35,963 nucleotides of DNA. Origin: Kiritimatiellia bacterium (GTDB lineage Bacteria; Verrucomicrobiota; Kiritimatiellia; UBA8416; JABMPJ01). The stretch is from positions 1-35,963 of the forward strand of contig JADHWE010000021.1 of NCBI GenBank assembly GCA_016783675.1, in the 5' to 3' direction. Shown in pieces: positions 5,820 to 16,874 of the stretch (positions are counted from its first letter, which is position 1; the number at the start of each line of letters is the position of its first letter). The translations under genes were made by a program, and so were the position numbers. Under the pieces are notes generated by a model. The model had not been told where the DNA came from, made no database searches, and was given only the letters and a program-made list of their open reading frames with translations.

Positions 5820-6590
5820 GTGTGCGAAATTCATGCACAGTTTCGATTCTACGAGGAGTTAAACGACTTCCTCCCGACTGACCAGCGCAAGCAGACCATC
5901 GACTATCACATCGATGGGCATCCCGGCATCAAGGACCCCATCGAGGCACTCGGCGTGCCGCACTCCGAGGTGGAGCTGATCGTCGTGAACGGGGAATCGG
6001 TCGGTTTCGACTACCAGCTCCAGGACGGCGATCGTGTGGCGGTCTATCCCGTTTTCGAAGCACTCGATGTCTCCCCTCTTGTACGGCTCCGGGATCGCTC
6101 CCTGCGTGAGACGCGTTTCATCCTGGATGTGCACCTGGGGAAGCTTGCCCGTTACCTTCGTCTGCTCGGCTTCGACTCGCTCTACCGCAACGACTACGAC
6201 GATCCCGAGATCATCGCCACGGCAATAGCCGAACACCGCATCATCCTCACGCGTGACCGGCGCCTCCTATTCAACAGCACAGTGACCCACGGCTACTTCA
6301 TCCGCGCCACCGAAGCCGTCCAACAGACCCGCGAAGTCCTGCAACGCCTCGACCTGGCCAACAGCATCCACCCCTTCCAACGCTGCATCGCCTGCAACGG
6401 TCTCCTGGAACCCGTACCCAAGGCAACCATCCTCAACCGCCTCCCACCCCGCACGCAGCGCGACTACGAAGAGTTCAGTCAATGCACGGCATGCAAACGC
6501 GTCTACTGGAAAGGCTCCCACTACGACCATATGACCCAACGCATCCACGAGCTGGCATGCCACGAGAAATGGGCGGTTTCGCAGCCTTGA
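5820..6590 (+). CDS. Mut7-C RNase domain protein with N-terminal ubiquitin/ThiS-like domain and zinc ribbon
   Basis: GTG start; N-terminal beta-grasp-like region; RFILDVHLGKLARYLRLLGFDSLYRNDYDD..IILTRDRRL (Mut7-C PIN-like); CIACN..CTACKRVYWKGSHYDHM zinc ribbon. Confidence 0.88.
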   Translation: MCEIHAQFRFYEELNDFLPTDQRKQTIDYHIDGHPGIKDPIEALGVPHSEVELIVVNGESVGFDYQLQDGDRVAVYPVFEALDVSPLVRLRDRSLRETRFILDVHLGKLARYLRLLGFDSLYRNDYDDPEIIATAIAEHRIILTRDRRLLFNSTVTHGYFIRATEAVQQTREVLQRLDLANSIHPFQRCIACNGLLEPVPKATILNRLPPRTQRDYEEFSQCTACKRVYWKGSHYDHMTQRIHELACHEKWAVSQP

Positions 6591-6704
6591 TTCTTGGTTG
6601 CCCTACCGGCGACTCAAACCACGTCGATGGTTAGCACAGGCAAAACCCGTGGAACAGGGCTCAGCGCACATTCCCGTCGACAACCGCACCACCCCACTGC
6701 GGTA

Positions 6705-6726
6705 ATTGCTCCTTAACCGGCCAATG
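6705..6726 (+). repeat. Left arm of 22-bp perfect inverted repeat bounding the AbiE-like cassette
   Basis: attgctccttaaccggccaatg is the exact reverse complement of 9169-9190. Confidence 0.9.
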
Positions 6727-6741
6727 GGCGAGATATTCTTG

Positions 6742-6837
6742 CGTTACGGAATCCGTTACGGATCTCACCTGTGTGCAGACGGATGGGATTCGGACTTGCA
6801 TTTATTACCGATAACTGCAATATTACGGATCAGTAAT
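6742..6837. promoter_or_regulatory. Candidate autoregulatory operators upstream of the AbiEi-like gene
   Basis: cgttacgga at 6742 and 6754 (12-bp period); ttacggat recurs at 6823 inside attacggatcagtaat. Confidence 0.45.
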
Positions 6838-6850
6838 AGAGAGGGTTGAC

Positions 6851-7885
6851 GTGAATACGAAGGTAATAGAGACAGGCCAAGACCTCGAGGTCACCGTCAA
6901 AGAGGTGGTCGCGGACTGGGAGAACCCCAAGATCCAGCTTGTACGGCCGGAGGGGCAAGACAGGGGTCTCATCGCCGAAGTGGATGTGGACGGAAAAGTC
7001 CATCGGTTCGGCGTGGACTGCAAGCTACGGCCGGCCGTGAGGGATGTAGAGAAACTGGCGGCGAAGACCGCGAGCGGCATATCTCCCCTTCTGGTGACCG
7101 TGCAGGCTACTCGGCCTCTTGTCGAGCACTGCAAACGGCTTGGTGTGAGCTGCCTGGATCTCAACGGGCGAGTCTGGTTGCGAGCCAAGGGGGTGCTGAT
7201 TGACCGGGAAGCGGCCCGCGGACCGGTGCGGTACCGTACGGCCGAGGTGCCGGCGAATCTGTTCTCGTTGAAGGGGTCACGCCTTGCGCGGGCTCTTCTT
7301 TCTTTTCCCGGGCGGCAATGGCGGCAGAACGAACTATCCGAGTTCACCGGGCTCAGCCAGGGATTGCTGTCCCGGCTGCTGAAGCACGCCGGCAAAGAAG
7401 GCTGGGTCACCGGCAGCCGAGGAGACTGGAGCGTGACGGACGCCGACGGCCTTCTGGACACGTGGAGGGCCGCAGACATCTGGAAGAAGCGCGTGAAGGT
7501 TCGTCAGTACTCCGCGCTGGAGGGTGATCTGACGAAGCTGGCAAATCGGGTTTTGGAGCACGTGACCGGGGAGATCGTGTTTACGCAGTGGTTCGCGGCA
7601 GGGTTAAGGTTCCCATATGCAGACGTGCCGATTGTATCGGCGTACGTGGCTGAGACACCGGACGCCCATCTGGCGGAGGTACTCGGTGTACGAGAGGTCT
7701 CCTCTGGCGGAAAGCTCTGGCTCATTACTCCGAAGGATGTCGGCGCTCTTCAGGCGATCCGACGGGTGGACGATTTCCCGATTGTCTGTGACGTTCAGAT
7801 CTACCTGGACCTGCTTCAGGTCGGCTTGCGGGGGCCTGACCAGGCTGAAGCGCTGCGGTCGTGGGACGGGTTTCGCAAGCCGTGA
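6851..7885 (+). CDS. Type IV TA antitoxin-like transcriptional regulator (AbiEi_2-like)
   Basis: ISPLLVTVQATRPLVEHCKRLGVSCLDLNGRVWLRAKG followed by a winged-HTH (NELSEFTGLSQGLLSRLLKHAGKEGWV). Overlaps the downstream nucleotidyltransferase-like ORF. Confidence 0.7.
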   Translation: MNTKVIETGQDLEVTVKEVVADWENPKIQLVRPEGQDRGLIAEVDVDGKVHRFGVDCKLRPAVRDVEKLAAKTASGISPLLVTVQATRPLVEHCKRLGVSCLDLNGRVWLRAKGVLIDREAARGPVRYRTAEVPANLFSLKGSRLARALLSFPGRQWRQNELSEFTGLSQGLLSRLLKHAGKEGWVTGSRGDWSVTDADGLLDTWRAADIWKKRVKVRQYSALEGDLTKLANRVLEHVTGEIVFTQWFAAGLRFPYADVPIVSAYVAETPDAHLAEVLGVREVSSGGKLWLITPKDVGALQAIRRVDDFPIVCDVQIYLDLLQVGLRGPDQAEALRSWDGFRKP

Positions 7886-8718
7886 AGATGGAGCACTACG
7901 AAGACTATTCGGCTGGGGACACGGCACGTTCCGAATCGGTGCTACTGACCGTATGGGCCGCCCTGCACGACCTCACCGAGGACTTGGTTCTGGTCGGCGG
8001 TCTGGTGCCGCGGTACATCTGCCGTGCTGCAGCTGAGACGCTTCATCCCGTCACGATGGATGTTGACTTGGGCGTGTCGCTGGCGTTGAGCAGTGGAATG
8101 TACGACACGACAAAGACACGGCTGCAAAAGGCCGGGTTTGACTGGAAGGACAAGCGATTCGTCAAGACGATCGGAAAGACACACCTGTTCTTGGACTTTC
8201 TGACTGACAAGCCTAGCGATACAGCGCCAGACAGTGCGATGGTGGATGACATACCGGTCGGCGCAGTGTTCGGGGTAAGTCGTGCATTGAATGTGTATCG
8301 GGAGATTGACGTGTCGGGTAAGGATCTATACGGCGCGAATGTAACGGAACGGGTCAAGGTCTGTGAAGTCGGGCCGTTCATCTGCTTGAAGCTCCAGGCG
8401 TATCACAACCGAGCGCAAAACAAGGATGTGTTCGACTTCGTACACGCGGTTCGCGATTACGACGGGGGAGCAGAGGCGGCCGTTGCCGCGTTCCATGCGG
8501 AGTCGGGGCGAAATCTGGCTTTCGAGCGCGCGATGCACACGCTGACGAACCGGTTTGCGGAGGAAACATCGAAAGGGCCCCTTCAGTACGCTGACTTCTG
8601 CGCCGGCAGTTTGATGGCCGACTCCGCGGCCGACGGGGAGTTTCTCCGGCAGCAGTACGCGAATGAGGCGGTTGACGCAGCACAGGCGTTGCTTCGCAGA
8701 GACGTTGGACGGTCATGA
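7861..8718 (+). CDS. Nucleotidyltransferase AbiEii/AbiGii-like toxin
   Basis: LVLVGGLVPRYICRAAAETLHPVTMDVDLGVSL (GG...DxD nucleotidyltransferase core) and KLQAYHNRAQNKDVFDFVHAVRDY (K..R..KD.hD). Internal Met in VKMEHYEDY (7888) is an alternative start. Confidence 0.78.
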   Translation: MGRVSQAVKMEHYEDYSAGDTARSESVLLTVWAALHDLTEDLVLVGGLVPRYICRAAAETLHPVTMDVDLGVSLALSSGMYDTTKTRLQKAGFDWKDKRFVKTIGKTHLFLDFLTDKPSDTAPDSAMVDDIPVGAVFGVSRALNVYREIDVSGKDLYGANVTERVKVCEVGPFICLKLQAYHNRAQNKDVFDFVHAVRDYDGGAEAAVAAFHAESGRNLAFERAMHTLTNRFAEETSKGPLQYADFCAGSLMADSAADGEFLRQQYANEAVDAAQALLRRDVGRS

Positions 8719-8747
8719 TTTCGAGGCTATGAGCAGGGAGAAACTCG

Positions 8748-9107
8748 ATGGCGCGGCCAGACCAACATATCTTCTATGACACAAACAAGGTGTCGCGCGC
8801 GGAGCAGAACCGCCTGTTGCGCAAGGCGCATTCCATCTGCAGCCACTGGTGGTTCGACAAGTTGGACTGCTCAGAGAGCTGGATGCGACAGAAGGTTGAT
8901 GGCGTCTCCTTCGAGGAGGCCATGGCGCATTTCGGCGAACGATCTCTGATGAATGTGATCCATCGGAGGGGGCATATACCGCTGGACGAGCCCCATTTGG
9001 AGGTCGGGTTTCGATCGATGGAGATGCCTGTCGACTACTTCCTTTGGATCGTCGTGCCTCTCGACCGCGCGGACGAAATCAGGAAGGGTTTGGAGGAGAA
9101 GAACTGA
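8748..9107 (+). CDS. Hypothetical protein, 119 aa
   Basis: ORF MARPDQHIFYDTNKVSRAEQNRLLRKAHSICSHWW... with upstream gcagggag RBS-like sequence; inside the inverted-repeat-bounded interval. Confidence 0.65.
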   Translation: MARPDQHIFYDTNKVSRAEQNRLLRKAHSICSHWWFDKLDCSESWMRQKVDGVSFEEAMAHFGERSLMNVIHRRGHIPLDEPHLEVGFRSMEMPVDYFLWIVVPLDRADEIRKGLEEKN

Positions 9108-9168
9108 ACCTGCCGGTCAGCAACAACAATCGAGCAAGATCTAGAACGAGACTAAAGCGATCCGGCCA

Positions 9169-9190
9169 CATTGGCCGGTTAAGGAGCAAT
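9169..9190 (-). repeat. Right arm of 22-bp perfect inverted repeat bounding the AbiE-like cassette
   Basis: cattggccggttaaggagcaat is the exact reverse complement of 6705-6726. Confidence 0.9.
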
Positions 9191-9372
9191 CACCCTCGTC
9201 GACCGCTCAACGATACTGACTGAAGAATCCGCACTGGTTGGCGACCCCAAGATTGACTTCGGCCGCGTGATGAAGCATGTGTGTGTGCGCATGTCCGTCC
9301 ACTTGCACGCGTAGCGACTGCTTCTTCTGCCGGCTGCCGATGTCCCGCCTTTCCTCCCGGCGTTCACGTCAA

Positions 9373-9428
9373 TAGTCTGTACTACACGCTTTGGTAGTCT
9401 GTACTATCCATCGCCATAGTCTGTACTA
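9373..9428 (+). repeat. Three direct repeats of TAGTCTGTACTA with 22-bp period
   Basis: tagtctgtacta at 9373-9384, 9395-9406 and 9417-9428; each is an imperfect dyad (TAGT/ACTA). Confidence 0.92.
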
Positions 9429-9579
9429 TACCCCTGACACAGACCACCCCGTCTGGCTGCCTATCGGACATAACCTGCGGCGACAGCCCACAAAGTGATT
9501 GTCACCATTCCCCTCAATGGCGTGGTGCCCTTCCCCATGCTTGCATCCAACCAGTCGGGTCGCGTAAGGTGACGCCACC

Positions 9580-15721: not shown

Positions 15722-15884
15722 GCGCCGGCAGACTGACTCCCCACGAAGGACATGAAGAAGAGAGACGGAGAAGTGGACAAAGCAACCTACGCGACGGGTG
15801 CCGCCAAGGAACCAGTTGAGGCGTTGGATGAGCACCTCACAGGTACAGATTCTCAATCACTATCGTTGAGCCATCAACGAGATT

Positions 15885-16751
15885 GACTGCTCCGTTGGGG
15901 TGGTGGTTTGGGGCAGGAGATCGATCGCCCCGAAGGGGCTTCTTCATCGTAGCCCAGGCCAACGGCCTAGGTGTATTCGGTTTATGTATTCGTGCCCTGA
16001 AAGGGCACCTCACTCTTCATCTCACCGTCAATCCCATACATACCGTTCGTCGTACGGAATCTCGTATCGGTCGAGGAAGGCCCGCAGCTCATCCTGGAAC
16101 GATTGTGTGCGGTGATGTTCAACCTGGCACTCGATATACGCCTTTACATCCTTCACATGTGTCGGCCCAACTGAGAACATGCCATATCCGCTTTGCCAGT
16201 AGAAACCGCCATAGTCAGGCCCCAGCGTCTTGATGAATTTGGATGATTCCTGTTTCACTTTGCCGATCAGGGCCATCGGCAGCATCTTCTTTCCGATGTC
16301 CGCGAGCATGTGTACGTGGTCATCCGGGCCACCGACGACCACATACGGACAGCCACAATCCCGTGCCAGCGTTGCCAGATAGGCATGGACGCGTGATCGT
16401 ATCGCATCGTCGAGCCAACGCTTTCGTCCTTTGGTCGAGAAGACGGCGTGAATGTAGATCTGACAGAATGATTGGGGCATAGTCATCGCCTCCGTTCGGA
16501 CCGTTGAGATTGATGCGCCCTTTCAGGGCACCAATACTCTGTACCTTACCCCAGGCCGTTGGCCTGGGCTACGTTGACATCGGCCCGTTGGGCCGATCGG
16601 ACTATGCTCAAGCGTTACATCTCTGGGCTGGTATCTCCTGCCCCTTCGGGGCGGAGGATCAAAGCACATTTCTCGAGTCCGAACGTGCACTCCTAATCTA
16701 CGAGGCGATGGCGGATTCTCGCGATAAACTAACCACCCCAACGGAGCAGTC
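15885..16751. mobile_element. RAYT-containing element bounded by 20-bp perfect inverted repeats and carrying mirrored palindrome arrays
   Basis: gactgctccgttggggtggt (15885-15904) is the exact reverse complement of accaccccaacggagcagtc (16732-16751). Palindromes at 15927-15939, 15956-15968 and 15992-16008 recur in mirror order at 16640-16652, 16550-16568 and 16515-16531. Confidence 0.8.
16028..16486 (-). CDS. REP-associated tyrosine transposase (RAYT, IS200/IS605-like Y1 transposase family)
   Basis: CQIYIHAVFSTKGRKRWL; VVGGPDDHVHMLADIGKKM (HUH-type H.H); FYWQSGYGMFSVGPTHVKDVKAYIECQVEHHR (catalytic Tyr region). Confidence 0.88.
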   Translation of the reverse strand: MTMPQSFCQIYIHAVFSTKGRKRWLDDAIRSRVHAYLATLARDCGCPYVVVGGPDDHVHMLADIGKKMLPMALIGKVKQESSKFIKTLGPDYGGFYWQSGYGMFSVGPTHVKDVKAYIECQVEHHRTQSFQDELRAFLDRYEIPYDERYVWD

Positions 16752-16874
16752 TATATCGTGGGTCAGGTCTTTTTCCTGTCCTGCCGGTTGTTCCGTCCCC
16801 ATTCGGCGGGCCTTTTCGGCAGATGGTGCGAAGCCGATTTGTGCACCCGGAGAGGATGAAGCTACTCCCTACCG

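Follow-up and report, generated by a model that had tools for sequence, protein, structure and literature searches.

Outside integrons and the dif modules of Acinetobacter, it is an open question how small toxin-antitoxin (TA) and defence genes move when they carry no recombinase of their own. The case described here is a contig of a Kiritimatiellia bacterium (JADHWE010000021.1; the whole analysed stretch of 35,963 nucleotides is referred to as the window), in which an AbiE-like gene pair and one further gene lie between two inverted copies of a 22-mer. Judging from its ends and from related units elsewhere, the interval is probably a non-autonomous TA cassette whose mobility is supplied in trans by a two-recombinase element that targets palindromic dispersed repeats.

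Borders and gene content of the AbiE cassette

A preliminary description of this locus had reported a perfect 22-bp inverted repeat around three genes, and this was borne out. The 22-mer ATTGCTCCTTAACCGGCCAATG at 6705-6726 (+) recurs as its exact reverse complement at 9169-9190 (22/22 positions), and the repeat can be extended to 26 nt with 25/26 positions complementary (6701-6726 and 9169-9194). These are the sole two matches in the window at three or fewer mismatches, shuffled sequences giving none. The three open reading frames lie where they had been placed, the interval 6705-9190 yielded no gene for a transposase or an integrase, and the remark that the cassette shows no target-site duplication is correct. 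The features of the locus are as follows.

6552..6704, no strand: left outer flank, the 'B' side of the insertion site; a diverged copy of a dispersed intergenic repeat, reaching into the 3' end of the Mut7-C gene
6705..6726, + strand: left 22-mer, comprising the outer arm ATTGCTCCTTAACCGGCC and the start of the spacer (AATG)
6713..6735, + strand: putative left recombination site (attL-like), TTAACCGGCC-AATGG-GCGAGATA; PWM score 25.1
6803..6838, no strand: a pair of inverted repeats that overlap one another (TATTACCGAT/ATCAGTAATA; TATTACGGA/TCAGTAATA), a short way upstream of the first gene
6851..7885, + strand: AbiEi-like winged-helix antitoxin/repressor, 344 aa, GTG start (plasmid homologues, wHTH matches)
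7882..8718, + strand: AbiEii-like nucleotidyltransferase (NTase) toxin, about 278 aa, GTG start (PF08843, motifs)
8748..9107, + strand: 119-aa orphan protein, accessory gene (no family)
9139..9168, - strand: inner region of the R-end, reading inward GTGGCCGGATCGCTTTAGTCTCGTTCTAGATCT, i.e. the inner arm and the first AGTCTCGTT repeat
9169..9190, - strand: right 22-mer, outer arm and spacer of the putative right recombination site (attR-like); PWM score 26.6
9191..9229, no strand: right outer flank, the 'A' side of the insertion site; a hairpin-like dispersed repeat

The 22-mer belongs to an imperfect palindrome, CCTTAACCGGCC-5 nt-GGCCGGTNAAGG, of which it makes up the outer arm and the spacer. 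When the 36-kb window was scanned with the PWM, the best background score was 13.3. The inner part of the left site is similar to the L-ends of the recombinase elements described below (CCGGCCAATCGGCGA), the likeness being weak (15.5/51.7 bits on the L model), for which reason the AbiE cassette may represent a unit that is old or has diverged.

AbiE toxins are bacteriostatic, are neutralised by their antitoxin without contact, and the system gives protection against phages. As in AbiE systems of type IV, the regulator and NTase genes form an overlapping bicistronic operon, the regulator coming first and the GTG start of the second gene overlapping the upstream stop by 4 bp. The regulator shows wHTH matches at residues 144-202 (E 3.5e-4, under the cut-off); plasmid homologues covering 94-97% of it are annotated as type IV TA AbiEi antitoxins, and its homologue in genome G071 scores 20.6 bits against PF09952 (AbiEi_2; cut-off 21). 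The NTase falls just under the cut-off for PF08843 (AbiEii; 22.1 bits, E 1.6e-4, cut-off 22.5) and its plasmid homologues are annotated as AbiEii/AbiGii toxins. AbiEii proteins are characterized by motifs I/II, hG[G/S]x15DhD, and motif IV, +DxxD, and AbiE promoters bear two inverted repeats which are bound by AbiEi (PMC3985639). In the present NTase motifs I/II read VGG...DVD and motif IV, placed by alignment, KDVFD; the operator-like inverted repeats at 6803..6838 are a candidate AbiEi operator, a function that we infer. The pair departs from type IV AbiE in lying just under the Pfam cut-off, in the spacing of motifs I and II (19 vs about 15) and in the extra 119-aa gene, and is best called AbiE-like, with a presumptive TA activity.

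The nearest homologous pairs are in genomes G071 (49% and 61% identity for the two proteins) and G047 (38% and 38%). The preliminary description had held that orthologous loci with the same genes but without the repeats would speak against its reading; its refuting conditions had a mixed outcome. Homologous AbiE pairs without flanking repeats do occur, so that the repeats relate to mobility and not to TA function. About 160 bp downstream of the pair in G071, the closest relative (L054:8695-10384), lies a HigBA-type pair consisting of Gp49 and an HI1420-type antidote.

It had also been suggested that the 119-aa gene is a third component of the system. On this account the gene would specify an effector, a chaperone or a second antitoxin, and a three-gene defence system would lie between the repeats. 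The gene directly follows that of the NTase. Three copies are present in the genome of the window: that in the cassette, a full-length one of 85% identity on contig C113 and a truncated one of 65% on C12. The C113 copy again follows a 374-aa gene and an NTase-like gene, overlapping the end of the latter by 4 bp. Against this, neither of the two closest homologous pairs (G071, G047) has the gene, the family is absent from 345 other genomes of the class and from a 388-genome sample of the phylum, and no AbiE model matches the pair on C113, whose NTase-like gene has IGS...DAD and lacks the +DxxD motif. The co-occurrence with AbiE pairs that had been proposed as a check was missing in the two closest pairs, the 85% paralogue standing behind another regulator/NTase-like pair, and we regard a true third component as unlikely. 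Since its closest AbiE relatives lack the gene and copies occur in the genome of the window only, it is better seen as an optional passenger of regulator/NTase-like operons than as a conserved component, and it may be an exchangeable accessory. Profile searches gave no family match for the 119-aa protein, and no plasmid or viral relatives were found when these were sought. An AlphaFold2 model was poor (mean pLDDT 55) and its Foldseek matches, none of which reached E<=0.001, were disregarded. The three-gene set on C113 (L060:1870-4269) is itself a candidate TA operon, recognised by no library.

Units with related ends

A search of the whole genome with the 22-mer gave two further copies with one mismatch each, on contigs C29 and C50 (reversed control 0). 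Copies of the core with 0-1 mismatch thus lie on C13 (both ends), C29 and C50/C109; the last two contigs overlap by 139 identical bases and so represent one locus. Other cargoes, which the preliminary description had proposed to look for, were indeed present in the host genome: a recombinase element (C29) and a HigBA cassette (C50/C109).

The element on C29 is about 3.4 kb in length, as set by its L-end (GGGCATTAACCGGCCAATCGGCGACCGTTTTCCC) at L014:8450. It opens with the core and has the order R-end, DUF6431 gene, gene for a 134-aa protein, TyrA, TyrB, L-end. TyrA and TyrB are tyrosine recombinases of 343 and 381 aa specified by overlapping genes (PF00589, E 6e-33 and 2e-24), and the catalytic residues checked (R, HxxR, H...Y) are all present in both. 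The element contains neither a third recombinase-fold protein nor a large TnpB, the third ORF being a truncated copy of tyrB. This truncated second tyrB lies behind the L-end and is followed by a second L-end (L014:8450-9178); it is taken to be what is left of a second copy, either tandem or nested.

A relative in genome G102 has a TyrA of 79% identity and the gene order and both kinds of end found on C29. G102 was the only other genome with TyrA among 346 genomes of the class (E<=1e-40) and in the 388-genome phylum sample (E<=1e-60), and IMG/VR yielded no TyrA relatives. Plasmid relatives of TyrA (34%) adjoin a second integrase and, in pBD2, also a DUF6262 gene.

The AbiE cassette has the outer core and the R-end in common with the C29 element, the inner L-ends being weakly similar. 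At C50/C109 ends like those of the AbiE cassette bound a unit of about 1 kb, with genes for a Gp49/HigB-type toxin and for an HTH antitoxin. When 85,000 genomes were scanned for exact copies of the 19-nt core, four stretches came up (L041, L042, L043 and L044). Two of them, L041 and L043, come from a single MAG with the label Lentisphaerae, and L043 is identical to contig C110 of the genus-mate G004. L042, labelled Verrucomicrobia, is a gene-less mini-element of 0.4 kb that has an R-end on one side and a recombinase-type L-end on the other; the inner R-end region of the AbiE cassette together with the core is 90% identical to an end of this mini-element over 50 bp. L044 (Bacteroidia) is surrounded by unrelated sequence, and we took it for a chance match. 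In G004 an R-end adjoins a canonical AbiEi/AbiEii pair (PADLOC, 209 and 351 bits) and is 86% identical over 111 bp to the R-end of the HigBA cassette; its left end was sought with the PWM and not found. The right end of the window's AbiE cassette matches the end of this second AbiE cassette as well. The sample comprises three complete non-autonomous units and two autonomous elements.

A search with the palindrome pattern also caught a diverged site on contig C103. Here a Fic-domain gene lies beside a diverged core with three mismatches (L032:939-2120), and the inner repeats differ (ATAGAGGTAA). The second end of this cassette was not found; a second R-end on C103 begins at L032:3661 and runs off the contig. 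The Fic gene possibly represents another cassette family of like kind.

Two inverted recombination sites around the genes, in a genome with tyrosine recombinases, would also be expected of an invertible phase-variation switch, in which such an enzyme flips the 2.4-kb segment. We consider this very unlikely. The recombinase genes are on a different contig, the inner arms of the two sites are unlike (GCGAGATA vs GGCCGGATC), and like ends elsewhere enclose unrelated cargo. Moreover, the candidate operator, the upstream region and the operon all lie within the segment, so that inversion would leave expression unswitched.

Short terminal inverted repeats around genes other than a transposase, which the cassette bears, are typical of MITE and transporter units, and would also be seen in the remains of a classical DDE insertion sequence in which cargo had taken the place of the transposase. 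Such a relic is extremely improbable here, given the lack of a target-site duplication and the structure of the ends, in which a palindrome is followed by TCTCGTT repeats; these ends are shared with elements that have no recombinases other than tyrosine recombinases.

The target repeat and its empty site

When the search was carried outward from the 22-mer alone, target and element were inseparable; they were separated by comparison of the inner ends (R-end and L-end). The A-side repeat, which adjoins the AbiE cassette on the right, occurs also at 15810-15893 of the window, at C50:7320-7408, at C40:4340-4424 (a flank copy with no core) and beside an empty palindrome in L041. The left outer flank is collinear with the left flank of that empty site and shows a weaker match to the B flank of the HigBA cassette.

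The empty site in L041 is a 41-nt palindrome, ATTGCTCCTTAACCGGCCAATGTGGCCGGTTAAGGAGCAAT, perfect except for the 3-nt centre. The preliminary description had proposed that empty sites be sought in relatives and that loci with and without the cassette be aligned. An empty site was thereby found in a genus-mate, and the window flanks, joined without the cassette, align with it through the palindrome (174/241 columns identical; score 117, shuffle maximum 25). L041 is a copy of the repeat at another, non-syntenic place, and its palindrome may be either a target before insertion or the scar left by an excision. The Mut7-C neighbour, which would have marked a syntenic empty locus, is absent from the four genus-mates.

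A second kind of unit uses the same repeat. An IS200-type Y1 transposase (RAYT-like; 16028-16486, minus strand; PF01797, E 3e-22) lies within a unit at 15877-16759 of the window with the ends GTTGGGGTGGT/ACCACCCCAAC. Its outer flanks are shared with the HigBA cassette (81/90 and 104/108 positions identical), and the homology of the flanks stops exactly at GCTCC and GGAG. One type of palindromic repeat thus houses two kinds of unit that are unrelated, the HigBA cassette and the Y1 unit. Relative to the A and B flanks, inserts are found both ways round, which a target that is nearly palindromic permits.

These findings bear on the further possibility that the 22-mers are merely the two halves of a common REP-like intergenic palindrome, the TA genes having arrived by homologous recombination or some other route without the recombinase element. 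The sequence beyond the 22-mers is indeed a dispersed repeat, the Y1 unit sits between the same types of flank with its homology ending at GCTCC/GGAG, and the C40 copy of the flank has no core. What makes this explanation improbable is the inner R-end (9139-9168), which is common to the recombinase-related ends well past the palindrome. Its motif has five matches in the 346 class genomes, each adjoining the core (controls 0). The reservation that the 22-mer might be a common intergenic repeat unrelated to the borders consequently stands for the sequence outside it, which is dispersed, and falls for the 22-mers themselves, which are exact borders of the cassette.

Probable mobilisation in trans, and known systems

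Mobilisation by the two-recombinase element builds on the shared ends, the several cargoes, the recombinase genes with complete catalytic residues and the empty site. The suggestion of a passively mobilised unit gains from the same source, the ends being common to a tyrosine-recombinase element and a TA cassette in the genome, with an empty site in a genus-mate. The cassette at 6705-9190 would consist of the AbiE pair and the accessory gene, bounded by two tyrosine-recombinase sites that are inverted and imperfectly palindromic. TyrA and TyrB specified by C29 would recognise its ends and act in trans, and the cassette would travel, probably as a circle, and insert into the centre of the dispersed palindromic repeat CCTTAACCGGCC-AATGT-GGCCGGTTAAGG. 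Each 22-mer would then be a hybrid junction composed of the outer arm of the target palindrome and the spacer; insertion of a circle between the palindrome arms would account for the lack of a target-site duplication. What we infer is that these recombinases act on this cassette, that a circle is formed on the way and that the gene pair has TA activity. The junction spacers are unequal (left AATGG, right ACATT; the empty site has AATGT), which is unexpected from an integrase that needs homologous spacers. Unequal spacers are known from SEs and GInts, where heteroduplex junctions are resolved (PMC10214605, PMC5385486).

The C29 and G102 elements resemble SE, GInt, Tn554 and RIT elements in having two tyrosine recombinases and small proteins between imperfect inverted repeats, both recombinases of the C29 element being catalytic and specified by one operon, and SEs and GInts also in the unequal spacers at the two junctions (PMC10214605, PMC5385486). 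They differ in that those elements have a third (tfp, ginC, ritB) or a large (TnpB) recombinase, the C29 element neither, and in their accessory genes (DUF6431 and the 134-aa protein), their length of 3.4-3.6 kb and their non-autonomous relatives with TA cargo.

Functionally closest are the Acinetobacter dif (pdif) modules, which are small gene or TA modules without a recombinase, have inversely oriented tyrosine-recombinase sites and are thought to be moved in trans (PMC6449649). The AbiE cassette likewise has no recombinase, inverted sites and a TA cargo. Here, however, the candidate recombinases come from a mobile element and not from host XerCD, and the contigs are chromosomal as far as seen, the relatives of the lineage being labelled Lentisphaerae/Verrucomicrobia. 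A dif/XerCD origin of the sites was rejected: the window contains no dif-like site, and the palindrome is identical to E. coli dif at 11/28 positions, which is no better than shuffles (mean 11.5). As its sites are not dif, the cassette is not a member of the dif modules.

Integron cassettes, too, are small gene or TA cassettes on which a tyrosine recombinase acts in trans, yet they have direct attC sites and IntI, whereas the present sites are inverted and form no array. Identity with integron cassettes was rejected on these inverted sites and on the score of TyrA against the integron integrase model, which is far under the cut-off (53 bits, cut-off 265). With REP/RAYT systems of the IS200 type the locus shares a dispersed palindromic intergenic repeat as target, and a Y1 unit in the same type of repeat; the ends of the AbiE cassette, on the other hand, match tyrosine-recombinase elements and not RAYT ends (GTTGGGGTGGT).

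More broadly, the 3.4-kb two-recombinase/DUF6431 element may represent a chromosomal TA trafficking system apart from integrons and dif modules, which would move cassettes of 0.4-2.5 kb into palindromic repeats; the case for and against this appears to us evenly balanced, and the same holds for its proposed cargo, an interchangeable set of AbiE-like, canonical AbiE, HigBA-like and possibly Fic genes. Since a probable driver, various cargoes, the gene-less mini-element and an unoccupied target site are all available, trans-mobilisation is directly testable. Cassettes of this kind may be discovered by looking for the ends of the driver and not for a recombinase adjoining the genes.

Two further repeat clusters were noted in the window. 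Three ATAGTCTGTACTA-type repeats with a 22-bp spacing lie at 9372-9431, upstream of a GNAT/cNMP-binding gene, and are a possible operator array. Near the start of the contig, at 141-227, there is a cluster of overlapping inverted repeats (AGATTAGGGCGAAAGATTAAGGCGA).
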